Source of the DNA: a virus
Length of the DNA: 23,260 nucleotides
Virus record (IMG/VR): IMGVR_UViG_3300046656_000187
Location: 1-23,260 of that record
Reading direction: 5' to 3' (one strand)
Shown: in pieces, positions 7,796 to 22,263 of the stretch
Numbering within the stretch: the stretch's first letter is position 1
Layout: each line of letters begins with the position of its first letter
Translations under genes and position numbers: made by a program
Notes under the pieces: model-generated
What the model was told of the DNA's origin: nothing
Databases searched by the model: none
The model's input: only the letters and a program-made list of their open reading frames with translations

Positions 7796-8242
7796 ATGAA
7801 AAAACTCACCATCCTCGCGGTTGCCGCGGCCTTCACTTTTGGGCTGTGCTCCCGCTCGCAAGCTCAATTGCAAAACGCCACTACCGGATTCGTCGTGGCA
7901 GCCGGCGTCACGACTAATGTCGCCGAAACGGTGGTTCCGATCGATTGCAGCGCCCAAAGAAACGTGGCGCTGAAATGGACATTCAATCTGAACGGATCCG
8001 GCACGGAAGTCATAGGCTTGCGGCTTTTCCCGAGCATCGATGGAACGGTTCCTTCCAGCCCGACGCTGGCCACCGGATTTAGCATGGCAATCGCCGCAAA
8101 CGGCACGACTCCCGTAACCGTCCAGACAAATTTCGATGCGCTCGGCTATCGGTATCTGTATGTCTGCTACATCACCAACGGGAGCAGCGGCCAGATCCTG
8201 ACCAACAAGCTCGATTATTACTTCAAGAAAAACGCTCCGTAA
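7796..8242 (+). CDS. Small exported protein in the head gene block
   Basis: The 148-residue product begins with a clear Sec-type signal: KK at 2-3, a hydrophobic core about 4-17 and a likely cleavage after SQA (residue 23). The mature part of about 125 residues is rich in Thr, Asn, Val and Ser, and looks like a beta-sandwich ending YYFKKNAP. No enzyme motif is visible. The gene lies between the capsid block and the head-tail joining gene and is followed immediately (0 bp) by the next ATG. A decoration-like role would need cytoplasmic location, which conflicts with the signal. Alternatives are a host-surface or periplasmic protein. Function is unknown. Confidence 0.75.
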   Translation: MKKLTILAVAAAFTFGLCSRSQAQLQNATTGFVVAAGVTTNVAETVVPIDCSAQRNVALKWTFNLNGSGTEVIGLRLFPSIDGTVPSSPTLATGFSMAIAANGTTPVTVQTNFDALGYRYLYVCYITNGSSGQILTNKLDYYFKKNAP

Positions 8243-8548: not shown

Positions 8549-9240
8549 GCGATGCGCTGATCACAGTCGAGACGGAGAAGCTGAATGCGGCGCTGAAGTC
8601 ATATTCCGGCCTCATCAAGAAGTCAGTTCCGGATATCCTCGCCAAAAAGGGAGGGAGTCTTGCCTTCGCGCTTCTGCAACGGGCCAAAGCATTGGCGCCA
8701 GCCAAGGGTTCAATCAGGGCATCGAGACTCGCGGCCCTCCTCGCCGGCGAAGGCGTGCGCGTGCGCCCGAGGGTCGTTCAGGCCATCCTGGCAAAATATG
8801 GAGCGCATTCGGCCGTCGATACTCGGCAGCTGCGATTCTTCCGAGGGAAGAAGTCGGTTGCCTCCATCAATCGCAAAGGCAAGCGGCTGAACCTTCGCGC
8901 GCTCATGGTGCAGCGCGAATTGAGCACGCGCGAATCCGGCCGCGGATTCCTCTCGGTCTCCTCCAGGTATCCGAGAATGCTGGCGGCCGCTCAGGAAGCC
9001 CGCAGCAAGTTCGGTCCAGCCATCTCCTCCGCGCGCCTTGAGTCCAAGGGCAGCGAAAGCTCAGCAACCATCCTTTGGGATGGGACACGCGGCGAGCTGC
9101 CCGCCTCGGCCGCCGAGGGGCTTCTTAAGCCAAGGGGCCGGGCGGCTATCGGTTTGGCTCTTCGCGATGTCACCAGTGATACGCTGGATTATGTCCAAAG
9201 GAAGCTCGGCGAGAGCGCCAAGGCTGCGAGGCTCAAATGA
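8545..9240 (+). CDS. HK97 gp10-like head-tail/tail component
   Basis: The 231-residue product has features of the HK97 gp10/minor tail family: an amphipathic N-terminal helix, then KALAPAKGSIRASRL (residues about 48-62) in the position of the family's AP.+G.l+.S motif. The middle segment LNLRALMVQRELSTRESGRGFLSVSSRYP (about 116-144) is a pattern often seen in longer phage members. The C-terminal 30 residues are helical and basic. It starts in an ATGA overlap and is followed 3 bp later by the tail terminator candidate, the usual order. It probably acts at the head-tail interface. Confidence 0.7.
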   Translation: MSDALITVETEKLNAALKSYSGLIKKSVPDILAKKGGSLAFALLQRAKALAPAKGSIRASRLAALLAGEGVRVRPRVVQAILAKYGAHSAVDTRQLRFFRGKKSVASINRKGKRLNLRALMVQRELSTRESGRGFLSVSSRYPRMLAAAQEARSKFGPAISSARLESKGSESSATILWDGTRGELPASAAEGLLKPRGRAAIGLALRDVTSDTLDYVQRKLGESAKAARLK

Positions 9241-9243
9241 CCA

Positions 9244-9678
9244 ATGATCGCCCTCAAAGACCTCCAGCATCATGCGGTGACGTTGCTTCAGGCTTTTCCC
9301 TACTTCGCCGGGGTGGAGATTGTGGAGGACTTGGGCAAGCAGGAGCACGACATCGAGCAGGCGCTTTCGACCGATGGTCAGGTGGTGATCGTTCCCTATC
9401 TGTTGGATGGCGACAAGCCAAGCAAGGCCAGCGAAGGGACCGGAGTCGTGGTGCTCCTGGTCGGCTTGCTCGTAATCGTGATGGTCAATCCCAAGAAAGC
9501 CACGCTCAACATTTACGAGATGGTGACGGCCGCCAAGGATGCGCTGCTGCAATATGCCAGCCCGGCCGGAAATCCAAACGACAGTTACCACGTCAGCACG
9601 AAGGCATTCATCGTGGACGAGTCCGATCAGGGAGTCGTCGCCTACCAGTGCTTTTTCGAGAAACGCTGCGTTTTTTAG
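9244..9678 (+). CDS. Putative tail terminator/completion protein
   Basis: The 144-residue product lies between the gp10-like gene and the major tail protein, where the tail terminator (lambda gpU class) is expected. Residues 1-60 resemble the family start (an N-terminal helix with a YFAGVEIVEDL strand). A hydrophobic strand pair GVVVLLVGLLVIVMVNP (about 66-83) is followed by the helix IYEMVTAAKDALL. The hydrophobic stretch looks like core strands, not a membrane anchor. This protein would cap the tail tube at its final length and join it to the head. The call rests on order and overall pattern. Confidence 0.6.
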   Translation: MIALKDLQHHAVTLLQAFPYFAGVEIVEDLGKQEHDIEQALSTDGQVVIVPYLLDGDKPSKASEGTGVVVLLVGLLVIVMVNPKKATLNIYEMVTAAKDALLQYASPAGNPNDSYHVSTKAFIVDESDQGVVAYQCFFEKRCVF

Positions 9679-9699
9679 CCGTTCCAAAAATCTAAAGCT

Positions 9700-10461
9700 A
9701 TGCCGCTCACTACCGGAACCTACCTCATCGGGACGCACTGTTATTTCGCTCGGAGTGGCGACACCATCGCTTCGACCATTGGCACCAGCAGCAGGGCGCG
9801 CAACACGAATGTCGCGACCATCATCACCCCGACGCCTCACGGGCTGTTCAATGGCGCCAGCGTTACCATCTCAGGTCTGGGCGGCGCCGGTTACAACATC
9901 GGACCAGTGGCGGTGACCGTTGTCGATGGGACGACCTTCACCTATCCCTGCGTCGCGGCTAATGAGGCAGTAACGGCGGATACCGCCGGCACGGTGACGC
10001 AGGCCGGGACGGCCTCCTCGACCAATCGGCCGGGGCCAAACGATGTCATCTGGAATGAGTTGGGCGTAATTGATTCGGCCTCAGTCAGTCTTGATGGAAC
10101 CGACATTGAGGTTTATGGACCAAGCCCCGGCAAGCTCACGCTGCATTCGCTGTTCACGACCAAGCGCAAGCTCACGCTCAAATTCACCAGCCAGGAATGG
10201 AGCCCGCTGGCGGCCGAGGTGCTTTACCTGACGGAGAAGCTTACGAGCTCCTCGACGCAGTTCAATCCGCTGGAAGGTGACGACAAGCTGGGGTGGCTCA
10301 AGACGGAACGCTTCGACTCCAACGACACGCTCCTGGAAGTTTTGGATACCTGGGGACGGCTCCGTATCTCCGGCGAGGTGAGCTTTGGCGGTGACGAGGT
10401 AGCCAAGCCGGGCTTCGAGTTCCTCGTGCTGCATTCCTCGCTGAACTCGGGCGCTCTGTGA
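9700..10461 (+). CDS. Major tail (tube) protein with an inserted beta domain
   Basis: The 253-residue product is the best candidate for the tail tube subunit. It follows the terminator gene, and its C-terminal half (WNELGVIDSASVSLDG..., residues about 118-253) is a beta-rich domain with KLTLKFTSQEW and FEFLVLHSSL near the end. Residues about 32-103 form an extra module with the pattern ATIITPTPHGLFNGASVTISG then VDGTTFTYPC then GTVTQAG. This HGL..G..V.I.G / TTFTY pattern is common in phage structural proteins and resembles the domain annotated as E1-FCCH-like. The module may decorate the outer tail surface. No Shine-Dalgarno is visible before the ATG. Confidence 0.7.
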   Translation: MPLTTGTYLIGTHCYFARSGDTIASTIGTSSRARNTNVATIITPTPHGLFNGASVTISGLGGAGYNIGPVAVTVVDGTTFTYPCVAANEAVTADTAGTVTQAGTASSTNRPGPNDVIWNELGVIDSASVSLDGTDIEVYGPSPGKLTLHSLFTTKRKLTLKFTSQEWSPLAAEVLYLTEKLTSSSTQFNPLEGDDKLGWLKTERFDSNDTLLEVLDTWGRLRISGEVSFGGDEVAKPGFEFLVLHSSLNSGAL

Positions 10462-10468
10462 CCGATGC

Positions 10469-10768
10469 ATGTCTACTCAATTCGATGACGGTCCAGCAGC
10501 ACCCATTCCGCTCTCCGCGGCGGGGCTGTTCGATGGCGCGCCCGCGGGCTCCGTCCCTCTCTCGTCCAGCGACGTATTCACTAGCTATCCAGCCCTGCCC
10601 ATCCTCCTGTCGGCCTCAACCAGCTTCGACAACTCGCCCCCGGCTCCGATTGGAGCCACCGAACCCGTCGTAGTCGTCCCGCCCGGCTCAGGGGATATCT
10701 TCCTAGATCCAGAGACAGGCGATCCATTTCTTAATCCTGAAACGGGCGATCCGTTTACCCAACCATGA
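10469..10768 (+). CDS. Pro-rich repeat protein, unknown function
   Basis: The 99-residue product is acidic, Pro/Ser/Ala-rich and lacks Cys and Lys. It is made of repeats: residues 5-52 hold three 16-residue units beginning F-D-x-x-P, F-D-G-A-P and F-T-S-Y-P, each with a PLS or LLS core, and a fourth partial unit starts at 53. Residues 80-97 hold two 9-residue units (DPETGDPFL, NPETGDPFT). It is probably extended and disordered. It follows the major tail gene by 7 bp and ends in an ATGA overlap with the first exported gene. It could be a linker, an adaptor or a decoy repeat. No family was recognised. Confidence 0.6.
   Translation: MSTQFDDGPAAPIPLSAAGLFDGAPAGSVPLSSSDVFTSYPALPILLSASTSFDNSPPAPIGATEPVVVVPPGSGDIFLDPETGDPFLNPETGDPFTQP
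10481..10654 (+). repeat. 16-residue (48-bp) coding repeats, 3.6 units
   Basis: Units start at 10481, 10529, 10577 and 10625. Each begins with Phe, has an invariant Pro five residues in, and an aliphatic-Ser core. The DNA has diverged while the protein pattern is kept. A separate pair of 27-bp units encoding xPETGDPFx follows at 10706-10759. Confidence 0.55.
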
Positions 10769-13287
10769 AAAAGCTACTTCTTTCCGTCCTGGTGCCATTG
10801 CTGATGCTTCTTTCGCCCGAGCGCGCAGCGGCGCAAGCGGCATGGTTCGGGTTGCAGCCCGACGTTGCCTCGATGCACGCGACCACCAACTTCTTTATCG
10901 TGGTCATGGGTTATGGAAGCAACTCCGTCGTGCGCAAGACGAGCCCGCAGGAGGCGCTGGCGATTCTCCAGAGCCTGCCTGGCTGGGCCGAGACGAATTG
11001 CAGCCCTCAGTTCGCCATCAGCTCGGACAAGAAGTTCTATGTCAAGGATGGGGCGAACATGACGAATCTGATTCCCTATTTCGGCGGGTCTGGGAATCCG
11101 TATCGGGCTCCGGTCTGGACAAATGCAGACACGGCGATCCCTTCCGTAAGGTCTGTCTGGATGCACACGAATGGAGCGGCGATTATCACTCTGGCCAAGG
11201 ATGCGCCATTCGGCAGCACGACGCTTCCGCCGGGCATTTATTATGGAGGCTATGGGCTGGCGACCAATGGCGACTTTCTCTTTCATGAGTTCCTGATCAC
11301 GGAGGTCGGAAGCGGAAACGTCGGGGGCCGCTTCACCATGAATTTCGACGATGTCGAGCATTGGGATTTCTTCCAGAACGCTTTGGTCAATATTGCCGGG
11401 ACTCAGATCATCTCGAACAGCGCCATGTCGGCCTTCGATCTTTATTTCGGGGACAATCTGGCCACGAACAATCAGCGCGGAAGCTACATCGTCATGAATC
11501 CGGCTAACAATGTCGTGATTCAAAAGTCGGTCACGCTTAATTCCAGCCTGCTGATGCCAATTCCAGGATCGGTGTTGAGCCTGAAGGGGACATCCCTCCA
11601 GATGATCACGAATACGACATTCAGCCTCGGCAAAGATTTGAACGATGGAACGGTAAACAAGATGATGATCAGCAGTAACAGTTATTTGGTGGCAAATGGG
11701 AATTCCGACTCTGCGGAGATTGATCGTTATAGGCTATCCAATACCTCCGTGGGATGGCACAGCAATGACATCGTGCGCCGATGGGAGCTTACCAATGCCA
11801 TTGCATTGCTGGGCGGCGGAGGCGGCGCCTCGACCAACTCCTCCCAATTCGGAGCCGCTGGTTCGACGCTCACGCTGCGCGACGGGGTGACGATCACGAA
11901 CGCAAATCAGATCGGGACGCTGCAAATCACCAACGCGCCAGGAGCGGGCTCGGGCGTCATGCGCATCTGGCAGACCAATGGCGTCCGTTATTCCGAACTC
12001 ACCATTCCCGATAACCTCTTTTCGACAAACCGAATCATCCTTTCCATCGGCAGCAATACAGTTTCGGCTACGCAGGTCTTAAAGGTCCATTCAACCTCCA
12101 TCTCTGGCGGAGTGAATACGATCACGCTGACGAATGATGCGGATGGTCTGGGCGGAGGAAGCATCTCGACGAACGCCAGCCAATTCGGTGCGGCCGGATC
12201 CACCCTGACGCTGCGCGATGGAGTGACCGTAACAAACCTGAATGCGAGCGGAACCATCCAGGCCACGAATGTTCCAGGGCAGGCCCCTGGCACGCTTCGC
12301 TTGTGGCAGACGAATGGGATCCGATATACAGAACTGACCATCCCGGACAATTATTTCGCCACGAACAAGATCGTCCTGAGCATCGGAAGCAACACGGTCG
12401 CAGCGGCGCAGGTTCTCAAGGTGCATTCGACTTCTATTTCCGGGGGAGTCAACACGATCACACTCACCAACGATACCGGAGGATCGGCCGGCGGAGGCGG
12501 CACGAACTTTCCTCCAGTTGTTCTCGGAACCGGAACCGCTCTTACGAATGTCACAACGGGCGTAGGAGTTCGCCAGAGCATCACGCTTCTCACGAGCAGC
12601 AACCAATATTTGAACTTCCAGACCGACGCTCTTAACGGAGAGACCGTGACGGTAGCCGTGACTAATATGGGCGCGACTAACGTGCAGATCATTCTCCAGA
12701 CGAACCAAGTGACGAGCGTGTTCTACGATCCTACGGTGGCCAGCAATCGAAACTCCTTCACCGTCGCGGCCAATGCTGTCGCGGTAAATACCTTCGTCCA
12801 TTCGACCAACTTCGGGAACAATTGGATCCTTTATAACACGCTTGGAAAGGAGATGGAATTGCAGGTGGCCGGGCTCGGGCTATCGCTCCTTACCAATTCC
12901 AGCAAGGACACACTCACCATCACCAATACACAATCAGCATCCTTGGGAATTACGATTGACGGAGGAGGCTCGGCTATCACAACCGGAACCAAAGGTTACA
13001 TTGAAGTTCCTTACAACTGCGTGATTGAGCGGGTAACGATGCTGGCTGATCAGAGCGGGAGCGCGGTCGTGGATCTTTGGAAAACCAATTATGCGAACTA
13101 TCCTCCGACCGTTGGGGCGACGATAACAGCGAGCGCCAAACCAACTATTACGACGGCGACAAAATCGCAAACGTCCACGCTGACCGGCTGGGTTACAAAC
13201 GTCACGGCCGGAGATATTATCGGCTTCAACGTGGACTCGGCATCCACGATCACGCGACTGACTCTCCAATTGAAGGTGAATCGATGA
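10765..13287 (+). CDS. Large exported protein with duplicated module and phage adhesin-like C-terminus
   Basis: The 840-residue product opens with a signal peptide (KK at 2-3, hydrophobic 4-16, likely cleavage after residue 23 in RAAA|QA). Residues 24-345 are unrecognised, with many aromatic and Gly residues. Residues 355-578 are two tandem 112-residue modules flanked by GGGG linkers. Residues about 735-840 (ITTGTKGYIEVPYN..., YPPTVGATITASAKP, STLTGWVTNVTAGD..., ending TRLTLQLKVNR) strongly resemble a beta-sandwich domain seen at the C-terminus of many phage fibre or structural proteins. A phage-type tip combined with a signal peptide is the oddity. It starts in an ATGA overlap and ends in another. 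It could be a spike or fibre, or a host-surface protein. Confidence 0.8.
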   Translation: MKKLLLSVLVPLLMLLSPERAAAQAAWFGLQPDVASMHATTNFFIVVMGYGSNSVVRKTSPQEALAILQSLPGWAETNCSPQFAISSDKKFYVKDGANMTNLIPYFGGSGNPYRAPVWTNADTAIPSVRSVWMHTNGAAIITLAKDAPFGSTTLPPGIYYGGYGLATNGDFLFHEFLITEVGSGNVGGRFTMNFDDVEHWDFFQNALVNIAGTQIISNSAMSAFDLYFGDNLATNNQRGSYIVMNPANNVVIQKSVTLNSSLLMPIPGSVLSLKGTSLQMITNTTFSLGKDLNDGTVNKMMISSNSYLVANGNSDSAEIDRYRLSNTSVGWHSNDIVRRWELTNAIALLGGGGGASTNSSQFGAAGSTLTLRDGVTITNANQIGTLQITNAPGAGSGVMRIWQTNGVRYSELTIPDNLFSTNRIILSIGSNTVSATQVLKVHSTSISGGVNTITLTNDADGLGGGSISTNASQFGAAGSTLTLRDGVTVTNLNASGTIQATNVPGQAPGTLRLWQTNGIRYTELTIPDNYFATNKIVLSIGSNTVAAAQVLKVHSTSISGGVNTITLTNDTGGSAGGGGTNFPPVVLGTGTALTNVTTGVGVRQSITLLTSSNQYLNFQTDALNGETVTVAVTNMGATNVQIILQTNQVTSVFYDPTVASNRNSFTVAANAVAVNTFVHSTNFGNNWILYNTLGKEMELQVAGLGLSLLTNSSKDTLTITNTQSASLGITIDGGGSAITTGTKGYIEVPYNCVIERVTMLADQSGSAVVDLWKTNYANYPPTVGATITASAKPTITTATKSQTSTLTGWVTNVTAGDIIGFNVDSASTITRLTLQLKVNR
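11827..12498 (+). repeat. 336-bp in-frame tandem duplication (2 units)
   Basis: Unit 1 (11827-12162) and unit 2 (12163-12498) are offset by exactly 336 bp or 112 codons (compare QFGAAGSTLTLRDG at 11845 and 12181). The final 19-residue block KVHSTSISGGVNTITLTND is identical in both, yet 13 of its 19 codons differ. The copies are therefore old, and the protein sequence has been strongly conserved. Confidence 0.9.
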
Positions 13288-14783
13288 AGAAATTACTCCT
13301 CCTTTTCCTGGCTCTGTCGCTGCGGACGGCATCGGCCGCGACAACTTACACAGAGTTCTACTGCAACTCGACCGGGACGAACATCAATGCAGGCTCGACG
13401 ACAAATGCCACGCCCACCTTTAGCGCGACCTCAGGCGATTGGGTGGCTTCGACCGGCGTCTGGACCAAGGCCGGAGCCAATCCGGTGACTGGTGGAGTCA
13501 CGGTTGGCTCATGGGCGAGCGTTTACATCGATGGTGCAACTACCGCTGTTTTCGTCGGGCGCGTCACGGCCGCAGACGATACCGCCGATACGGTCACCGT
13601 TTCGATCGTGGCCTGCACTGGAATTCCTCCCGCCGATGGCACCGGAACCCGAAGTATCCGCGTTGGCGGAGCTTGGTATGGTCCCTGGTATGCAGGGGCG
13701 ACGGTGGACAATCTCCCATTCACGTTTGCTAACGGTCTGATGACGAACACGAGCGGAAATGCAACGCGGGTAAACTTGAGCAATAGCAGGATTTACGGCA
13801 CGACTAATGTGACCGTGCCCAGCAACGGTCCGGTGACCTTTCAGGGCTATGGAACGAACGCCGCAGACTTGGGCAAGTCTTGGATTACCGGCAGCACGGT
13901 CGGCAATGGCTACACGTCGGTCACGGTTAGCGGGGCCAATGTCAGCTTGGTGGATCTCATTTTCGCTACGAACGGCACGAGTGGCTCGGCTGGCATTCTA
14001 GTTTCCATATCTGGCTCAGAATGCTACATGCTTCGCTGCGTCACTCGGGATGGCCGCGGCCCCGGCATCTTCCTGTCTGCGCTGGATGTGATCGAGGAGT
14101 GTGAGGCGTTCCTATGCAATGCCGGCAATGGCATACAGGGCGTTATTCAGCTATCGACCTCCGGGAGCGTGGCCAAGCGTTGCATTGCCCACGACAACGC
14201 CGGGACGGGATCCAGCGGATTCGCTCTGGGCTCCGGGGGATGCAGTCTGATCGATTGCATCGCGGATACGAATGGCCGGGATGGGGCCACGGTGTCTTCT
14301 GCAATTGCGGCCTACATTTCAGGTTGCGACTTCTACAATAATGTCACTAACGGAATCAACCTGACCGGAGCCTCTTCGACACTCATCAATATTGAGAACT
14401 GCAATTTTATCGGCAACGGCGTCGGACTCACCGGAGCCTACGCGATCAATTCCTCTGGAAGCCTCATTCGAAACGGTTCAGTCATCAATTGCGCCTTTGG
14501 AGTGGGGACGGCCACGAACGGAAGCGGGGGAGCGAACATCATTGCCGGAACCGGTCTGGACGAGATCGGAAGCATTGTTTACGGGAACAATCTGACGCCT
14601 TGGGTGGATCCGGCCAACGGGGATTTTCGCATCAGTTCGGCTGCCGCTATCAATGCCGGCCGCGGCAAGTTTACCCAGACGCAGGCTAGCTATGGAGGAG
14701 CGATTGCCTATCCCGACATCGGATCGGCTCAGCATTTGGAAAGCGTGGCGACGGGAGGCGGCTCCTATCCGTTCGTTCAATGA
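13284..14783 (+). CDS. Exported right-handed beta-helix protein (tailspike-like)
   Basis: The 499-residue product has a signal peptide (KK at 2-3, Leu-rich 4-13, cleavage likely after TASA, residue 18). Mature residues 19-150 form a head domain seen with phage beta-helix proteins (TYTEFYCNSTGTNINAGSTT, then a GSWASVYIDG..TAVFVGRVT strand pair, then GTRSIRVGGAW). Residues about 160-470 are parallel beta-helix coils with recurring N-C-x-F and D-C-I turns. The C-terminal YPDIGSAQ matches the D-I-G-A motif that often closes such domains. Beta-helices in phages usually bind or cut surface polysaccharides. No catalytic residues can be assigned. The start at 13284 is set by ATGA overlap and the signal peptide; an upstream extension of the frame is a shadow of the previous gene. 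Confidence 0.82.
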   Translation: MKKLLLLFLALSLRTASAATTYTEFYCNSTGTNINAGSTTNATPTFSATSGDWVASTGVWTKAGANPVTGGVTVGSWASVYIDGATTAVFVGRVTAADDTADTVTVSIVACTGIPPADGTGTRSIRVGGAWYGPWYAGATVDNLPFTFANGLMTNTSGNATRVNLSNSRIYGTTNVTVPSNGPVTFQGYGTNAADLGKSWITGSTVGNGYTSVTVSGANVSLVDLIFATNGTSGSAGILVSISGSECYMLRCVTRDGRGPGIFLSALDVIEECEAFLCNAGNGIQGVIQLSTSGSVAKRCIAHDNAGTGSSGFALGSGGCSLIDCIADTNGRDGATVSSAIAAYISGCDFYNNVTNGINLTGASSTLINIENCNFIGNGVGLTGAYAINSSGSLIRNGSVINCAFGVGTATNGSGGANIIAGTGLDEIGSIVYGNNLTPWVDPANGDFRISSAAAINAGRGKFTQTQASYGGAIAYPDIGSAQHLESVATGGGSYPFVQ

Positions 14784-17700
14784 GGCTGTGGATCATCATC
14801 CTGACTTTTTTCTGCGCATTGTCGGCCGGGGCCGCTCCGGCGACGTATTACGTGGCGACGAACGGACTCGATGCCAATCCGGGCACGATCGGTTCGCCGT
14901 TCCGGACCATTCAAAAGGGAGTTAACACGGCGCTGGCCGGCGACACGGTCAAGGTTGCAACGGGCCAGTATGCCGAGAACGTGACGAGCGCGCGCAGCGG
15001 CGGCGTCGGGACTCCAATCATCATCGACGGACAGGGAGTGGCTACGAACTGGTCTTTCCTGACGACTCATTCGAACATCTACCTTTTCAATTTCTTCCTG
15101 GCCGGAAAGGCAAGCGCATGGTGGTTCTGGATGGGCAAAGGGGCGCACGACTGCATTATTTCGAATACACTATTCGACGGCGGATTGAATGGCAGCGCCT
15201 CCATCCTCCTGCGCTGGGATAATCCAATTCCTGGCACCGAGGCTCCGTTCGGGGGGAACTGCGCGAGTCGCTGCCTCATTATCAGCAACGAGTTTCTGCA
15301 CGTCGCCGGGACGACCGTTATACAATCCTACGGGGATAATAATACCTTCATCGGAAACTGGCTGCACGACTCGGACGCTGTGGACTGGTTTCACGTCTTC
15401 GGACGCACTAACTACGTGGTGTCGAACGTTTGTTCCAATGACTACATCTCTGGAAATTTCAATAATCACCCGGACTTCTTCCAGATTTTCGGCAGCGGCA
15501 ACGGAGGCGGAGCCAAGGGCATCATCGTCGAAAGCAATCTGGTGGTGAAGATGGATGAGGATGCTCAGATCTGCATGTTCGAGGGTCAGGATAACCCGGA
15601 CCTTGGCGATGTGACCTTCCGAAACAATTTGTTTATTGGCGTCGCCGCCAAGGGCACGGCCGCCGCCCCAGACATCAAGTGGTATAACAATACCTTCATC
15701 AATTGCTCGACAAATACGATCACGGCTGGCGCGGTGCTCATTTTCACATCAGCAGAATGGACCGGAAGCGTGGAGACGCCACCTGGGATTTTCACAAACT
15801 ACACCGCAAGCACTGGCATAGGTGGCAGAGCCTACAACAATGTTTTCTTCAACTGCGGCGGAACCAACAGCACCGGAGGAACGAATACCGACCGAGGATG
15901 GTATGTCTTCTCCTCGGACCTGACCAACATTTCAGCAGACTACAATTTCGTCACGAAGAACGGATATAAGGCTGTGGATGTGGATGCGATGCATCGGCAC
16001 GTCGGGGATGCTGGAGGATGGAATAAATATGCGCTCTGGGAGGACCACGGAATAAACGGAGGAGATCCGTGGTTTTACAATGAGACGAACGACCTGCGGC
16101 TGCAAGCCACTAGTCTCCTGATCGGCGTAGGCACAAATGGATTGGTCACGACAGATTTCCGCGGAGTGCCACGCGGGACTGCTACCGATATCGGCGCATT
16201 CGAATACCTGGACCCGCTCACCTATCTGGCCACCAATCCGGTGCCCTGCGATCTGGAGACGCGCACGCTGATGGGCTTTCCGGTCTCGGCCTCGCACGTC
16301 ATCAGCATCGTCTGGCCGACGAACCAATATCGAAACGCGTTGAACGTCTATCGGCGCAATTTCACCAACGCTCCTGGGCAGTGGCTAGCCTGGACCTCGG
16401 TTTACACAAACACATCCAATCCGACCTTTGCCGGGCTTTGGAATGATACGAATGTGACCTCTGGGACGCATTATGAATATCAGCTTATTGCCGGTTCTAC
16501 CAATTCGATGTGCGGCACGAATGGGATCGATTTTGGTTACAAGGGCTTTGAATACATGAATGCCGGGGTGAACGTGCCGCTTCGCGAGCAGCGCGGGAGC
16601 GTGATTCTGCTTTGCGAAAGCGGCATCACAAACGCGCTGGTGACGGAGCTGGGCACGCTCGTCTCTGACATGCTCGGAGATGGTTATAAGGTGTTCCGGC
16701 ACGACATCGCGGCAGTGGACGTAACTGCGGGAGCGACGTGGTTCACCGCCGTGACCAATACAAAGGCGCTCATCTTGTCCGACCTGCGGAGCGGAACAAA
16801 TGGGGATTTCTCCATCTTCATCGTTGGCCATGTTCCGATTCCATACTCGGGCGATTCAAGCCCCGGATTCCATGCGAACAATATCGGAGCGCATCCGGCC
16901 GACTGGTTTTACGCTGATACCAATGCGGCCTCCTGGACCGATTCCACCGTCAATGACAGCACGTCCGACTATGTGGCAGATCACAATACGGTTGGGGACG
17001 GCAAGTTTGACCAGGACAACATCCCGACGACTCCGGAGCTGCGGATAGGCCGCGTGGATCTGCGCAACCTGCCGGCCTTCCCAATCTCGGAGGTTGAACT
17101 GCTCCGCCAGTATCTGAACCGCAATCATCAATGGCGGCATCGGCAATTCACCGTTCGCGATAGAGCCCTCATGGGAACAAACAGTAGCGTGACCGTTCCG
17201 CCATATGAATGCTGGGGAACCTACTCGCAACTCTTCGGCAACGGCACAAACTTCGACATAGCCAACTGGATCACGACCTCGACGAATGCCGCGCATAGCT
17301 ATCTCATGGCTTCATCGCATGGAAATGCCAGTTTCACGAACGATCTGCTCCTCGGTCGAACAATAGATTTTGCATCCAACTCGCTTTATTCGGCATTCAA
17401 CTCCATATATGGGAGCTATTATGGGGACTGGGATAGCTCGCAGCACGCCGACGATGTCGCATGGGCGCCGGTGGCTGCTACGGGCTATACGCTTGGGCTC
17501 TATTATCGAGAGCAGCAGGTAAATATCAACCCTTCTAGCATGGGGGAGCCTTATGCGGATGATCTATGGTTCCTTTCGGCTAATTTCTTCGTCGGAAGCT
17601 CAGCGCAATACTTGCAAACCGGCTATTGGTATACAAATGGAAGCACATTCCTGAACCCGCAGCGGCTCGCCAATTACACGACATACTTCGGAGATCCGAC

Positions 17701-18058
17701 GCTGCGGATCCGGCAGGTGGGTCCGCCGACCAATGCTGCTGTGGTGCAGGTCGGCAGCGATAATGTCGTGAGCTGGACAGCCTCGACCGATTCCGGAGTT
17801 GCGGGCTATCATGTTTATCGCGCACCGAGTTCAGACCTGAATGCTTACGCGCGCCTTACCTCGACCTTGACGACGAGTCCATATACAAACTCTGGCGCGG
17901 CCGGAACGCCCTATATCTATTCGGTGCGTGCGGTGAAGCTGGATCAATCGGCCGGCCGAAGTTTCTTCAACGCCAGCCAGGGAGCATTCGCTTCGGTAAA
18001 CACGACCCTGTCTGGACCCAATCTCAGAAAGCTAAACAAGATTAGGCTAAAGCCATGA
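14780..18058 (+). CDS. Exported beta-helix / FN3 / C25-like chimera
   Basis: The 1092-residue product is the largest here. Residues 1-18 are a signal peptide (cleavage likely after AGA). Residues 22-480 are a DUF1565/pectate-lyase-like beta-helix: TYYVATNGLDANPGTIGSPF at the start and DIGAFEYLDP (about 468-477) at the end. Residues about 500-580 look like an FN3-type module. Residues about 600-975 resemble a C25 (gingipain-like) peptidase region: RGSVILLCESG, FIVGHVPIPY, GDGKFDQDN, ELRIGRVDLRNLPAF, a SHGN motif with His847, GSYYGDWD (878-885) and FGDPTLR (about 970-976). A catalytic Cys is not evident where one is expected after the His, so activity is doubtful. Residues about 978-1075 are a second FN3 domain. 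The C-terminus is basic (NKIRLKP). The domain calls are from pattern recognition. Confidence 0.8.
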   Translation: MRLWIIILTFFCALSAGAAPATYYVATNGLDANPGTIGSPFRTIQKGVNTALAGDTVKVATGQYAENVTSARSGGVGTPIIIDGQGVATNWSFLTTHSNIYLFNFFLAGKASAWWFWMGKGAHDCIISNTLFDGGLNGSASILLRWDNPIPGTEAPFGGNCASRCLIISNEFLHVAGTTVIQSYGDNNTFIGNWLHDSDAVDWFHVFGRTNYVVSNVCSNDYISGNFNNHPDFFQIFGSGNGGGAKGIIVESNLVVKMDEDAQICMFEGQDNPDLGDVTFRNNLFIGVAAKGTAAAPDIKWYNNTFINCSTNTITAGAVLIFTSAEWTGSVETPPGIFTNYTASTGIGGRAYNNVFFNCGGTNSTGGTNTDRGWYVFSSDLTNISADYNFVTKNGYKAVDVDAMHRHVGDAGGWNKYALWEDHGINGGDPWFYNETNDLRLQATSLLIGVGTNGLVTTDFRGVPRGTATDIGAFEYLDPLTYLATNPVPCDLETRTLMGFPVSASHVISIVWPTNQYRNALNVYRRNFTNAPGQWLAWTSVYTNTSNPTFAGLWNDTNVTSGTHYEYQLIAGSTNSMCGTNGIDFGYKGFEYMNAGVNVPLREQRGSVILLCESGITNALVTELGTLVSDMLGDGYKVFRHDIAAVDVTAGATWFTAVTNTKALILSDLRSGTNGDFSIFIVGHVPIPYSGDSSPGFHANNIGAHPADWFYADTNAASWTDSTVNDSTSDYVADHNTVGDGKFDQDNIPTTPELRIGRVDLRNLPAFPISEVELLRQYLNRNHQWRHRQFTVRDRALMGTNSSVTVPPYECWGTYSQLFGNGTNFDIANWITTSTNAAHSYLMASSHGNASFTNDLLLGRTIDFASNSLYSAFNSIYGSYYGDWDSSQHADDVAWAPVAATGYTLGLYYREQQVNINPSSMGEPYADDLWFLSANFFVGSSAQYLQTGYWYTNGSTFLNPQRLANYTTYFGDPTLRIRQVGPPTNAAVVQVGSDNVVSWTASTDSGVAGYHVYRAPSSDLNAYARLTSTLTTSPYTNSGAAGTPYIYSVRAVKLDQSAGRSFFNASQGAFASVNTTLSGPNLRKLNKIRLKP

Positions 18059-18561
18059 AGATTCTGCTCCTTCTGATCTTGGCATCCTGCGCAGCCGGCG
18101 CGCAGACGACCAACGTAACCTTTACCTGGGACCCGTCGCCTCCGGCCAGCGGGCAGGCTTATCGTTTCTATGAGAAGGTTGGGCAATCCAGAGTTTTCCT
18201 CGGAACCGCACAAACCAACTTCTTCACCGTGAGCAACTGGGTCGTCGGCGCTTCGCGCACGATGACCGTGACCTGCACGAATACCTGGGGCGAGAGCGCC
18301 GAGTCGGCGCCATGGATTATGGGCACGAGCCCAACTGCTCCGCCGAACCTCAAGCCAGTTCCATTGTCGCTGATTGCGCCAATGCCGGGCACGATTGAGT
18401 TCTCGCATGATCTGGCCGTCTGGATGGATAGGCTTCAGCTATTGCAAATCGATGCGATGGCCGTGCAATGCACGTTCAAACTTCAACCCGGGGATCCGAT
18501 GCTTTTCGCGCGCGTGAAGCAACCATTTCAGCCGGCCGCGAGACCTTCTTTTCTGCCATGA
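18055..18561 (+). CDS. Small exported FN3-like protein, possible lipoprotein
   Basis: The 168-residue product starts with a short hydrophobic signal containing LASC at residues 9-12, which fits a lipobox, so Cys12 could be lipidated. At 12 residues the signal is short, and a signal peptidase I site after AGA (residue 16) is an alternative. Residues about 20-95 look like an FN3/Ig-like sandwich (VTFTWDPSPPASGQAYRFYE ... MTVTCTNTWGESAES). Residues 100-160 resemble a small domain seen in secreted Verrucomicrobia proteins (IEFSHDLAVWMDR ... PMLFARVKQP), which is an inference. Both ends are ATGA overlaps. It may anchor or assemble the neighbouring large exported proteins. Confidence 0.72.
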   Translation: MKILLLLILASCAAGAQTTNVTFTWDPSPPASGQAYRFYEKVGQSRVFLGTAQTNFFTVSNWVVGASRTMTVTCTNTWGESAESAPWIMGTSPTAPPNLKPVPLSLIAPMPGTIEFSHDLAVWMDRLQLLQIDAMAVQCTFKLQPGDPMLFARVKQPFQPAARPSFLP

Positions 18562-19796
18562 GGATATTGCTGATCATTCTTCTGATGTGGATAGCGGCGG
18601 TGTCGGCGCGAGCAGCCGACCAGATCGCCGCCGATGGAACCTGGACCGGCGTGAGCAATGCGCTGTTCGCCGCTTCAGATGGCGACTTTGTGAGTATACC
18701 ATCCGGTTCTAATGTTTGGGCCGGCCGATTGCGCGTTACTAAACGGGTTACGATCCGAGGTAGTTCTAGCAACTATAATGGAACCGTAATAAATCTCGAT
18801 CCAACTGCCGATACAAAGGACGGCATTTTTCTAATCGAGAAAGACTGGTGCTGCATCAGCAATATGTATCTTCGGGCTACGGATGCAGCGGGTCCGGTTC
18901 CGCAGGGATGGCTAGTGGCGCTCCACACGAATAATTGCCTGGTGCGCAATACCTACTTCACGCGCTGCCTGGCCGGAGTTGTCGGAGGAAGTTTTTCGCT
19001 GGTGAGTCATTGCATGTTCTACAACTGCGAGCGCATGGGAAGATGTTTCGGGATGGCTCCGCTCAACGGGAATATGAATGCCTACAATGACGCCAAATGG
19101 GTCACGACGTTCAGTTACACGAATTTCAACGGAAACGCATTCGATGCCACCACGAACTTCTTTGCCAGCACAAACTTCATGGTTTTCGAAGACAATCTGA
19201 TGGATGTGGACGGAAGCACCATGCCGTCTGGAAGGCTTCAACAGGCTTGCATCACGTCGCAGCAAGGTCAGATGTGGATCGCCAGGCACAACTACATTTC
19301 TCTTCGCAACAACTACATTCATACCCCGGCATTCGACATGCACGGCGGCGGTGACTGCTGTTCAGATTATGGGGCTCTTTGCGTGCAGACGTATTCGAAC
19401 ATATTCAATGTATCTTCCGGAGGCCAAGTCGATAAGCTGCTGGATCAGCGCGGAGGAGTCGGGACTTGCTATAGCAATTGGATCAATACGGCATTCAACG
19501 ACACAATCCACATGAGAAATGCCAGCGGGACCGGGGAATTTTGGGATAAGGGTCCGCAGGTCACCAACTCCTGGCATTGGGCAAATTTCACAAACAACGG
19601 AGCCAATTGGGTAGGAGTTACGAGCGACATTTCTTACATAGAACTAAGCAAGTCGTATCATACGAATCAACCGGCGACAGTTTACCAAATGACGTATCCA
19701 GATCCGGTCTGGAATTTCTTCGTTCCAACCGCTGTGACTACGCTTACCGACCCGGTGATTCCCCGCCGAGTCAAAGGCGTGAAACTCCGCCCCTAG
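18558..19796 (+). CDS. Exported right-handed beta-helix protein
   Basis: The 412-residue product starts at the ATG overlapping the previous stop. The frame is open further upstream, but that stretch is a shadow of the FN3 gene. The signal peptide has Arg2, a long hydrophobic core 3-15 and likely cleavage after SARA (residue 19). Residues about 20-390 are Asn/Cys-rich beta-helix coils (WTGVSNALFAASDGDFVSIP as the entry strand, then turns such as NNCLVRNTYF, VSHCMFYNC and LRNNYI). A GGGDCCSDYG loop near 270 is unusual. The C-terminus RVKGVKLRP resembles the end of the 1092-residue protein. A polysaccharide-binding or lyase role is plausible, but no active site is identified. Confidence 0.8.
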   Translation: MRILLIILLMWIAAVSARAADQIAADGTWTGVSNALFAASDGDFVSIPSGSNVWAGRLRVTKRVTIRGSSSNYNGTVINLDPTADTKDGIFLIEKDWCCISNMYLRATDAAGPVPQGWLVALHTNNCLVRNTYFTRCLAGVVGGSFSLVSHCMFYNCERMGRCFGMAPLNGNMNAYNDAKWVTTFSYTNFNGNAFDATTNFFASTNFMVFEDNLMDVDGSTMPSGRLQQACITSQQGQMWIARHNYISLRNNYIHTPAFDMHGGGDCCSDYGALCVQTYSNIFNVSSGGQVDKLLDQRGGVGTCYSNWINTAFNDTIHMRNASGTGEFWDKGPQVTNSWHWANFTNNGANWVGVTSDISYIELSKSYHTNQPATVYQMTYPDPVWNFFVPTAVTTLTDPVIPRRVKGVKLRP

Positions 19797-19800
19797 CTTT

Positions 19801-20241
19801 ATGACCGAAACACAAAACAATGGCATCTCCAAAATGGAAACCCTCAACGGCGGCGCCCTTCTAGAAGCGATCCATCTCGACGGCGCAATCGAAACCGTAA
19901 AGGTTCTGCAACTTTCGGTGCGCCAGTATCAGCAACTCCGAAACTCACTCGATGACGAGCTGAAGGTAGTCGAGCTCTATTGCGGCAAGCCAGAAGGATG
20001 GGCTGAAACCCTGACGCCGGCCAGCCACAGCGCCATTGCCGAGAAGGGAGGGGAACTCAACAACGCTTTTTTCGGTGCTTGGGCTCGGCGCAGTCTCAAC
20101 CTTCAGGAGCTAATCATGCCGGGCATCGTGGACCGCGCCATCGAAAGAGCGAACTCGGCCTCGCCGACTACGTCGCCGAAATCGCCATCGAATGCGGAAT
20201 CACGCTTGGGCAGGCGACCGAGCACAGTCTTGCCCAGTTGA
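19801..20241 (+). CDS. Tail assembly chaperone (gpG-like), 0-frame product
   Basis: The 146-residue product fits small tail assembly chaperones encoded just before the tape measure. The features are a strand VKVLQLSVRQYQQL (about 38-51), an acidic middle DDELKVVELYCGKPEGWAETLTP (about 55-77), the helix HSAIAEKGGELNNAFFGAWARR and the segment LQELIMPGIVDRAIE before a Ser/Pro-rich tail. The last 30 residues (SPTTSPKSPSN...) look like low-complexity readthrough past a frameshift point. The overlapping -1 frame encodes the T extension. These chaperones bind the tape measure and recruit tail tube subunits. The gene begins 4 bp after the last exported gene. Confidence 0.75.
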   Translation: MTETQNNGISKMETLNGGALLEAIHLDGAIETVKVLQLSVRQYQQLRNSLDDELKVVELYCGKPEGWAETLTPASHSAIAEKGGELNNAFFGAWARRSLNLQELIMPGIVDRAIERANSASPTTSPKSPSNAESRLGRRPSTVLPS

Positions 20242-20396
20242 ACCTGCTGGCGGCGGCGGCGGCCAGGATTAAAGCGCGGCAGGCGGTGCTGGATTTAGAC
20301 TCGCGGGTTTCGGCGCATGCGGCGGTAACGGCCAAAGGCGGGGCAAGCGCGATGAAGCAACTGCGTGGCGCATTAGAGAAGCAATCTCGTGGCTGA
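20079..20396 (+). CDS. Tail assembly chaperone T extension, made by -1 frameshift
   Basis: This frame is -1 relative to the gpG-like gene and overlaps its 3' part. From about 20150 it encodes a coherent helical sequence (ELGLADYVAEIAIECGITLG, then HSLAQLNLLAAAAARIKARQ, ending LRGALEKQSRG). Upstream of about 20145 the same frame gives non-protein-like sequence, while the 0 frame looks real. A fusion of about 115 residues from the 0 frame with about 83 from this frame gives a gpGT of about 198 residues. The ATG at 20079 is probably not used. The end overlaps the GTG start of the tape measure by 8 bp. Confidence 0.7.
   Translation: MGSAQSQPSGANHAGHRGPRHRKSELGLADYVAEIAIECGITLGQATEHSLAQLNLLAAAAARIKARQAVLDLDSRVSAHAAVTAKGGASAMKQLRGALEKQSRG
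20142..20148 (+). other. Candidate -1 ribosomal frameshift site
   Basis: In the 0 frame the codons are C.GAA.AGA. A -1 slip here joins the plausible 0-frame segment MPGIVDRAIE directly to KSELGLADYVAE in the -1 frame. The sequence is not a perfect X XXY YYZ heptamer, so the exact site is uncertain. The only perfect heptamer in the overlap, TTTTTTC at 20067-20073, lies too far upstream to give a sensible product. Confidence 0.4.
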
Positions 20397-22263
20397 CAAT
20401 ACAATCGCAATCAAGCTGGCGTTGCAGGGCCTGCCTCAGGTGGAGGCAGGGCTCGGTAAACTCGGCGCCGCATTACAGGGCTTTAAGAGCTTTATTGGGC
20501 CGGGCATCATTGCCGGAATCACCGCCGAGCTGGGGCATTTCGTAACGTCCGCGATTGATACGGCCGATGCGGCAGGGAAGATGGCGCAGAAGGTTGGGAT
20601 CGCCACGGAGCAACTCACCGCTCTCGAATATTCTGCAAAACTGGCTGGGGTTTCCAATGAGACGTTACAGAGGTCGCTGGCGCATCTTTCCCAAGAGATG
20701 GTTAAGACTGGCCGCGGGGGCGAGGATGTCCTTGCCGTCCTGCTCTCTATCTCAGATGAGTTCCAAGCCGCTCATGGAGGAGCCGAGAAGACGAGCATCG
20801 CCATCGATCATTTCGGAAGGAAGGGCATAGAGATGATCCCGCTTCTGAATGCCGGGAGCGCCGCCATAAAAGAGCAGGCTGAGGAGGCCAGGAAGTTGGG
20901 AATTGTCATCGGTGATGATTTTGCGAGGAATGCAGAGAAGTTTAACGACAATCTCACCAAGCTTAAGCTTGGCGCAAAAGGCGTCGTGAATGAAATCGTG
21001 GCGGATATGCTGCCAACGCTTTCTAATTTAAGCGCGATCTTCGCCAAGGCCGGAATCGAATCCCGAAGCTTCATTTCCAAAGGCATCGAGACGCTTGCAA
21101 TCGGCCAGTTTGGAGCTGCGTTTAAAGGGCTGGAATTGGCCGCGGCAAAAGTGGCAAGCCTTCTTGGGCTTGCTAACCAAAATCGCTCAGCAGGAACTGG
21201 GGATCTGCAAACATTTGCCACGCGCGAGCAGACGCTCCATTCCATGCTGGCCGCAAACGATGCCATACTGCGAAGCGTCCAGGCCAATACTCTGACATCG
21301 CCATCGGACAGGCGCGAAGCATCTATAGGCGTGCTAAGGGATGAACTTAAGCAGTTGATCGAGCTTGAGAAAATCGCAACCGATAATCTGCCCGGGCCCA
21401 TCACTACTGGCAACGCGGAGGGATTACAGGTTAAGACTCAGGAGCGCATAGACGCCGAAAAGAAGCTTTATGATGTCCAGCGCCAGCGCATTGACGTCAC
21501 GGCGAAGCTTATTGAATTGGACCGGGAAACGTTCAGCGGAAAGATGCTTGAAAATCTTCAAGCTCTGGCGAAGGACTGGGGAAATCTCGGCGTTCAAATG
21601 GCGGACGGGTTCAAAAACACCTTCATGTCCGCGGTCGATACGATTTCGGATGGGATAACTGGACTCATCACCGGAACGCTGACATGGGCTCAGGCGCTTC
21701 GTCAAATCGGAACGAACATCCTCACGGAGATTGTTCATAGCATAGTCCAAGTCGGCGTAAGGTGGATCGCTACTCAGTTTCTGATGGCCGCCACGGGTCA
21801 GGCGGTCCTAGCCTCCACGCTGGCCATTACGGCTCCAATTGCAGCCGCGCAAAGTGCTATCTGGGCGGTCCCGGCGACTCTTTCGACAATCGCAAGCTAT
21901 GGCGCATCCGCCGAGGCCGCGCCCGCATTCGTCCTGCAATCGTTGGCGGAATCATTGGGGGCGCTCGCAGGTTTCAGCGGCGGAGGATTCACAGGCCTTG
22001 GCAACACCAGTCAGCCCGCCGGCGTCGTCCATGGCGGCGAGTTCGTCTTCAGCGCGCCAGCGACTTCGCGCCTCGGAGTGGACAATCTCGAATCTCTCCA
22101 TCAAGCCGCCCTCTCGCCTTCTGTAAACGTCCAGGGCCATTCGGTAATAAACGTCATGGTCCGCGACCAATCCGAATTGCGCGACTTCTTAAAGAGCCGC
22201 GCCGGCCGGGACGAGGTAGTGAATATCGTCCGAACCTACCGAACGGAAATCGGCATCGCATGA
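20389..22263 (+). CDS. Tail tape measure protein
   Basis: The 624-residue product starts with GTG at 20389 (MADNTIAIKL...), overlapping the chaperone stop by 8 bp. The N-terminal third has typical tape-measure features: Ala/Gly-rich helices (AGLGKLGAALQGFKSF), then AGKMAQKVGIATEQLTALEY and ETLQRSLAHLSQEM. The middle is long charged helix. A hydrophobic region (about 455-530, Ala-rich) may insert in the host membrane. The C-terminal GGGFTGLGNTSQPAGVVHGGEFVF is a family hallmark. By the usual rule of about 0.15 nm per residue, the tail would be roughly 90 nm, an inference from length. The gene ends in an ATGA overlap. Confidence 0.92.
   Translation: MADNTIAIKLALQGLPQVEAGLGKLGAALQGFKSFIGPGIIAGITAELGHFVTSAIDTADAAGKMAQKVGIATEQLTALEYSAKLAGVSNETLQRSLAHLSQEMVKTGRGGEDVLAVLLSISDEFQAAHGGAEKTSIAIDHFGRKGIEMIPLLNAGSAAIKEQAEEARKLGIVIGDDFARNAEKFNDNLTKLKLGAKGVVNEIVADMLPTLSNLSAIFAKAGIESRSFISKGIETLAIGQFGAAFKGLELAAAKVASLLGLANQNRSAGTGDLQTFATREQTLHSMLAANDAILRSVQANTLTSPSDRREASIGVLRDELKQLIELEKIATDNLPGPITTGNAEGLQVKTQERIDAEKKLYDVQRQRIDVTAKLIELDRETFSGKMLENLQALAKDWGNLGVQMADGFKNTFMSAVDTISDGITGLITGTLTWAQALRQIGTNILTEIVHSIVQVGVRWIATQFLMAATGQAVLASTLAITAPIAAAQSAIWAVPATLSTIASYGASAEAAPAFVLQSLAESLGALAGFSGGGFTGLGNTSQPAGVVHGGEFVFSAPATSRLGVDNLESLHQAALSPSVNVQGHSVINVMVRDQSELRDFLKSRAGRDEVVNIVRTYRTEIGIA

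Follow-up and report, generated by a model that had tools for sequence, protein, structure and literature searches.

Signal peptides on fibre-like and capsid-neighbouring proteins encoded in the structural operon of a tailed phage and its relatives

The DNA analysed here, called the window throughout, covers an entire IMG/VR record (23,260 bases) and represents a fragment of a tailed phage. Its genes are ordered as small and large terminase, portal, protease-capsid fusion, connectors, likely tail tube, chaperone, tape measure and tail tip. Five consecutive genes encoding products with a signal peptide (SP1 to SP5) are found after the likely major tail protein and before the chaperone and tape measure genes, and a sixth signal-peptide gene (SP0) is the second gene after the protease-capsid gene. 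The features are given below (G and L numbers, here and in the text, are our handles for other sequences).

7796-8242, + strand: SP0, predicted exported beta-sandwich protein of 148 aa (signal score 10.6), candidate head decoration
9700-10461, + strand: likely major tail protein, no signal, left flank; its homologues in G011 and G013 adjoin the tail chaperone gene or closely precede it
10469-10768, + strand: Pro-rich gene of 99 aa with FD..PAAPI.LS repeats; its stop overlaps the SP1 start
10765-13287, + strand: SP1, predicted exported fibre-like protein of 840 aa (signal score 13.8), with a C-terminal virion module
13284-14783, + strand: SP2, predicted exported right-handed beta-helix protein of 499 aa (signal score 13.1; PF13229, 5e-7)
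14780-18058, + strand: SP3, predicted exported protein of 1092 aa (signal score 11.2), beta-helix/DUF1565 and choice-of-anchor Q, then a domain of secreted Verrucomicrobiota proteins
18055-18561, + strand: SP4, predicted exported small protein of 168 aa (signal score 11.8), with a homologue in G005
18558-19796, + strand: SP5, predicted exported probable beta-helix protein of 412 aa (signal score 10.1), with 12 Cys in the mature part
19801-20241, + strand: tail assembly chaperone, no signal, right flank (phrog_1442, E=0.0012)
20389-22263, + strand: tape measure protein, no signal (phrog_13338, 1e-40, and several tape-measure PHROGs)

The gene at 9700-10461 has a weak PHROG virion structural match, and the Pro-rich gene has counterparts in L004 (a similar repeat gene) and L008 (a small gene at the same position). 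All five cassette starts overlap the preceding stop by 4 nt as ATGA. An earlier reading of the window made from the letters alone (the sequence-only reading) had described this coupling correctly, but it is not specific to the cassette, the same 4-nt overlap being found at seven other called junctions of the window. It is hence an operon-wide habit, and its value lies in the pinning of the start codons. The SP genes, whose junctions overlap inside the structural operon, do not have the placement of a lysogenic-conversion moron, that is, of an independent unit outside the late structural operon. Regarding other gene calls, the ORF at 784-1206, after the small terminase gene, has no relative in related contigs and may be spurious. 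At 9237-9695 the longer frame is probably spurious, and the 144-aa frame at 9244-9678, with a homologue in G005 (40%, E 7e-24), is likely the tail-completion protein.

Signals were scored with a home-made log-odds scorer of the n-, h- and c-regions, in which known E. coli signal peptides, used as positive control, obtained values of 5.9-13.2. The six SP genes of the window scored 10.1-13.8 and every other gene of the window less than 1. The sequence-only reading had proposed Sec-type signals for the five cassette products, and this proposal held up, with the coordinates and lengths proving exact. All six N-termini have a charged n-region, a hydrophobic core and small residues at -3/-1, as expected for SPase I. 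The predicted N-termini, with the cleavage site marked by a slash, are MKKLLLSVLVPLLMLLSPERAAA/Q for SP1, MKKLLLLFLALSLRTASA/A for SP2, MRLWIIILTFFCALSAGA/A for SP3, MKILLLLILASCAAGA/Q for SP4, MRILLIILLMWIAAVSARA/A for SP5 and MKKLTILAVAAAFTFGLCSRSQA/Q for SP0.

Two null sets were considered. For internal protein segments the 99% and 99.9% levels lay at scores of 3.1 and 7.0, and for shuffles of the SP genes' own first 40 residues at 8.4 and 10.8. The two lowest window scores fall between these two shuffle levels, hence for those two the residue order alone is moderate evidence, and conservation in relatives is the stronger argument. Among other phages, Lom, which is truly exported, was the only one of the lambda structural genes to score above 6, none of the BPP-1 structural genes scored above 2, and Bacteroides phage B124-14 had one signal-scoring gene, at the far end of the scanned block. 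The verrucophage P8625 had no signal-bearing gene by our scorer, and its published SignalP analysis likewise reports no signal peptides (PMC4642752). The residue at +1, which the scorer ignores, is Gln in 31 of 75 signal-bearing genes (p=9e-24), and the same A/Q cleavage context is also found in secreted host proteins. The six signals thus look genuine and of SPase I type, with starts pinned by the overlaps, and Sec export of the SP proteins is very likely, judging from the sequence. As a general motive for export, disulfide folding was discarded because Cys was not enriched (p=0.35), and a basic C-terminal tag (KIRLKP, VKLRP) as a shared feature was discarded as a trend only (p=0.06). SP3 (end 18058) and SP5 (end 19796) have similar basic tails, KLNKIRLKP and RRVKGVKLRP.

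Relatives were recruited by the large terminase, which gave a near group (41-69% identity) and a more distant one (about 33%). Further sequence of 18 contigs was taken, the pieces were joined and genes were called by one uniform procedure. Signals were carried by 53 of the 303 structural-region genes of at least 100 aa in the near terminase group and by 0 of 230 in the distant group (p=1e-14, overstated since the counts are genes and not independent events, with the contrast between the groups still plain). In the window and in G001-G013, the terminase, portal, capsid and tape measure genes all lack a plausible signal; in a cruder first scan one portal call and one terminase piece, both on short contigs, had scored weakly.

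The place of the SP genes varies. They are found mid-operon in G002, G003, G010 and G013, near the operon end in G001, G006, G009, G012 and others, and in some relatives after the tape measure; in G005 they come before the counterpart of the tail-completion gene that the window has at 9244-9678 (true frame). Where the window has its cassette, L008 (terminase 48%) carries a small gene and then an SP-bearing beta-helix protein, L004 a fibre-like frame without signal, and G011 nothing between tail tube (9761-10318) and chaperone (10323). With SP genes at varied places, and absent from the cassette place in L004 and G011, the trait is common but mosaic among the relatives. The synteny comparison suggested by the sequence-only reading therefore returned recurrence with shifting positions: the location before the chaperones and not after the tape measure holds for the window and not for all relatives. 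That reading had named true starts lying downstream in related phages as a refutation, and the relatives keep their signals at the true starts. A lysis-gene scan beside the SP cassettes matched a papain-like peptidase in G013 and nothing in the others.

The SP0 family comprises 10 members, all of them with a signal (10/10), at 18-44% identity to the window copy. The gene is first or second after the capsid gene in the window, G003, G004, G009 and others, which are divergent phages. The AlphaFold2 model is all-beta (pLDDT 78, pTM 0.69), and fold searches gave a generic beta-sandwich with TM-scores of about 0.3-0.6 and lectin and jelly-roll matches. As would be expected of a head decoration, SP0 is a small protein encoded beside the capsid gene, and we infer from this position that it is a candidate for such a role. 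A search of 388 Verrucomicrobiota genomes gave no match to SP0, and was uninformative since it had no positive control.

Among the cassette products, SP1 carries at residues 725-838 a module matching phrog_35197 (2e-34) and phrog_10330, a virion structural protein, similar to virion proteins of the cyanophages S-SSM7 and S-CAM1. Residues 82-370 resemble an SP protein (20098) of G005, and a search of Verrucomicrobiota genomes, run without a positive control, gave no match. SP1 also contains, at residues about 350-600, two near-identical tandem units (SQFGAAGSTLTLRDGVT...GGVNTITLTND). SP4 has a weak match to the central tail fibre J (phrog_31) and a homologue in G005 (37%, E 2e-28), whose N-terminus is MTNVLTIIAILLPFLACA/Q. 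For SP5 we obtained a sub-threshold TIGR03805 match and no relatives, and an AlphaFold2 model built without relatives was unusable. Viral-contig searches with SP1, SP3 and SP5 as queries gave no relatives.

SP3 matches PF07602 and NF041518, and its N-terminal part is similar to an SP protein of G003. Residues 480-1080 occur in Verrucomicrobiota chromosomes (best E 4e-84), and 45 of the 388 Verrucomicrobiota genomes match some part of the protein. Its C-terminal half is a domain of ~600 residues with a GDPTLRI motif, frequent in secreted Verrucomicrobiota proteins and matched by no Pfam model. A likeness of SP3 to C25-peptidases, seen by eye, was rejected, as it had no Pfam support and the catalytic-looking residues are not kept in the host relatives. 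Since this half is a secreted chromosomal domain, not every SP gene need be a virion part, and SP3 may act free on the matrix around the cell. Overall, homology to fibre, spike or virion modules is found for the SP1 C-terminus and for proteins of G004, G010 and G013, and SP2, SP3 and SP5 have beta-helix features only.

The SP-bearing protein of G004 has a tail fibre C-terminal match (1.6e-15), that of G010 matches EPS-depolymerase/tailspike, that of G013 a tail protein, and that of G009 has YadA head repeats. The exported spikes of the sequence-only reading thus find support in the tail-fibre, tailspike and virion modules of the relatives. An N-terminal domain directly behind the signal is common to proteins of G002, G003 and G008, the remainder of which differs, a pattern known from tail fibres; the same domain resembles small SP-less proteins of G010. 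The spike body of the G010 SP protein begins at residue 22-23, corresponding to residue 319 of the VSW-3 protein and to residue 31 of the pphageT12 one. As the T7-like homologue of VSW-3 has 318 residues in front, the virion anchor of the G010 protein may have been lost.

A C-terminal IRARRVR module (loci L167:2353-3426, L169:3650-4459 and L171-L257) links verrucophage SP proteins to BcepC6B gp19, to PBR31_00035 and to the SP-less fibre of the T7-like phage KpV74. Its distinct relatives in IMG/VR are divided into 33/66 with a signal and 33/66 without, the first being an upper estimate because the start with the best signal was chosen; for most of these 33 the chosen start is also the first start of the frame. 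The SP members are the shorter ones (median 320 aa against 464 aa for the SP-less). A pattern search with the signal peptide of the query hit none of the SP-bearing members. Within a given contig, SP and SP-less proteins have no module in common, hence the SP proteins are not decoy copies of known virion fibres.

Relatives of the terminase are present in a Verrucomicrobia MAG, in Cerasicoccus arenae (Verrucomicrobiota) and, in total, in 23 of 388 Verrucomicrobiota genomes. Because of these and of the SP3 domain, the host of the window phage is likely a member of the Verrucomicrobiota. Prophages of this phylum carry SP genes at fibre-like positions in G096, G326, G234, G346 and G382, and other prophages do not.

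The explanation that we prefer, tentatively and at slightly less than even chances, is late export, release at lysis and docking on virions outside the cytoplasm for at least part of the set. Precisely, adhesin, depolymerase-like and decoration proteins would be made together with the late structural proteins, and SP0-SP5 would be exported by the host Sec system. The steps that we infer beyond export are that heads and tails would assemble in the cytoplasm as usual, that the exported parts would fold in the periplasm, and that lysis would mix the cytoplasmic and periplasmic pools. Part of the exported proteins would then dock on virions as side fibres or spikes, and SP0 as head decoration. The explanation as a whole draws on the signals themselves, their enrichment in the near group, the Gln at +1 and the SP genes at fibre positions in Verrucomicrobiota prophages. 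Docking is favoured by SP0 being kept at the capsid gene, by virion modules behind signals, by the shared N-terminal domain and by the signal-free core proteins; it is disfavoured by the anchor perhaps lost in G010, by the host domain of SP3, by the Cys content, which is not raised, and by L004 and G011, which manage without SP fibres at that place. Tailspikes of P22 and Hoc/Soc of T4 can be attached to particles in vitro, which we also count for docking. A broader and somewhat more speculative extension would be a second, extracytoplasmic branch of virion maturation in some tailed phages of diderm bacteria, in which Sec-exported fibres and head decoration join finished particles in the periplasm or after lysis.

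The main rival to virion docking is that the SP proteins are free-acting, that is, soluble depolymerases or receptor-binding modules which are exported, released at lysis and never become virion parts. By removing the polysaccharide of the matrix or blocking receptors on debris, they could keep progeny from being trapped, in a role like that of T5 Llp. We hold both this fate and this role to be possible but rather doubtful. A spike body directly behind the signal in G010, without the N-terminal part of VSW-3, would suit such proteins, as would the shortness of the SP members of the IRARRVR family, the beta-helix/pectate-lyase folds, the SP3 domain known from secreted host proteins and the SP protein of PBR31 and BcepC6B encoded between spike or fibre and holin. 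Left unexplained by free action are SP0 at the capsid gene and the conserved N-terminal domain behind the signal, and the lack of a module common to SP and SP-less proteins of the same contig also speaks against it.

A coat function, with the proteins placed on the surface of infected or lysogenic cells, for instance for superinfection exclusion, seems improbable. The choice-of-anchor Q domain of SP3 would fit a surface coat, and so would the prophages G234 and G346, with SP genes at the operon end beside the integrase, but the window genes are ATGA-coupled inside the structural operon, and the proteins scanned matched neither a sorting signal nor a YadA anchor domain. Because of this operon place, a lysogenic coat is the weakest candidate when set against post-lysis addition, free action and a host coat. 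We give an equally small chance to a relic, in which genes captured from host secreted proteins would keep signals that are functionless in the phage. The C-terminal half of SP3 is clearly of the host secreted kind; against a relic, SP0 and SP1 had no match in Verrucomicrobiota genomes (in searches that lacked a positive control), the signal is kept in every SP0 copy despite the low identity, and signals stand before modules of phage type and are seen again in many proteins that are unrelated to each other. That the starts are mis-called, or that the hydrophobic N-termini arose by chance, is very improbable: the scorer is home-made, but it separates positives from controls, with none among the 230 distant-group genes, the ATGA overlaps fix the starts, and Gln is frequent at +1. 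Such an artefact is refuted as far as sequence allows.

The usual teaching is that tailed phages complete their whole assembly in the cytoplasm. We found no description of exported tail fibres in tailed phages in the literature searched, which was open-access PMC only, and one paper takes a lack of signal peptides as an argument that a protein originated from a phage (PMC6199706). Export-tagged fibre-like or coat-like proteins, which recur in the relatives and in some cultured phages, are apparently undescribed. With a phage lineage that routes several fibre-like proteins and a capsid-neighbouring one through Sec, receptor-binding proteins would have to be searched for and named differently, and a well-defined question arises that is within reach of proteomics on existing isolates.

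Compared with known systems, the SP proteins have in common with tail fibres, tailspikes and EPS depolymerases the C-terminal modules, the beta-helix folds, the place in the late operon and the swapping of receptor-binding parts. The homologues in KpV74, VSW-3, pphageT12 and S-SSM7 have no signal, whereas the window-type proteins are preceded by a Sec signal. Two cultured phages of Proteobacteria carry the same IRARRVR module behind a signal, namely BcepC6B of Burkholderia (gp19, score 12.4, annotated as tail fiber) and PBR31 of Xanthomonas (PBR31_00035, score 9.2, annotated as putative structural protein). They differ from the window in that each has a single SP gene, with spike or fibre on one side and holin on the other; the gp40 esterase is the only protein for which the PBR31 paper mentions a signal peptide (PMC10975493). 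P8625 is also a siphophage of Verrucomicrobia with a tail fibre gene but, unlike the window phage, has no signal peptides (PMC4642752 and our own scoring). SP3 is matched in architecture and signal by secreted Verrucomicrobiota proteins that carry DUF1565, choice-of-anchor Q and its C-terminal domain, but these are chromosomal.

Lambda Lom and T5 Llp are phage-encoded exported envelope proteins without virion-type modules, usually single genes outside the structural run. They share product export with the SP genes of the window, which instead lie in the structural run. In M13, a filamentous ssDNA phage extruded through the envelope, the adhesin pIII and the coat protein pVIII carry a Sec signal and the virion is completed outside the cytoplasm. 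The SP proteins have no homology to pIII or pVIII, and the window belongs to a tailed dsDNA phage with terminase, portal and tape measure.
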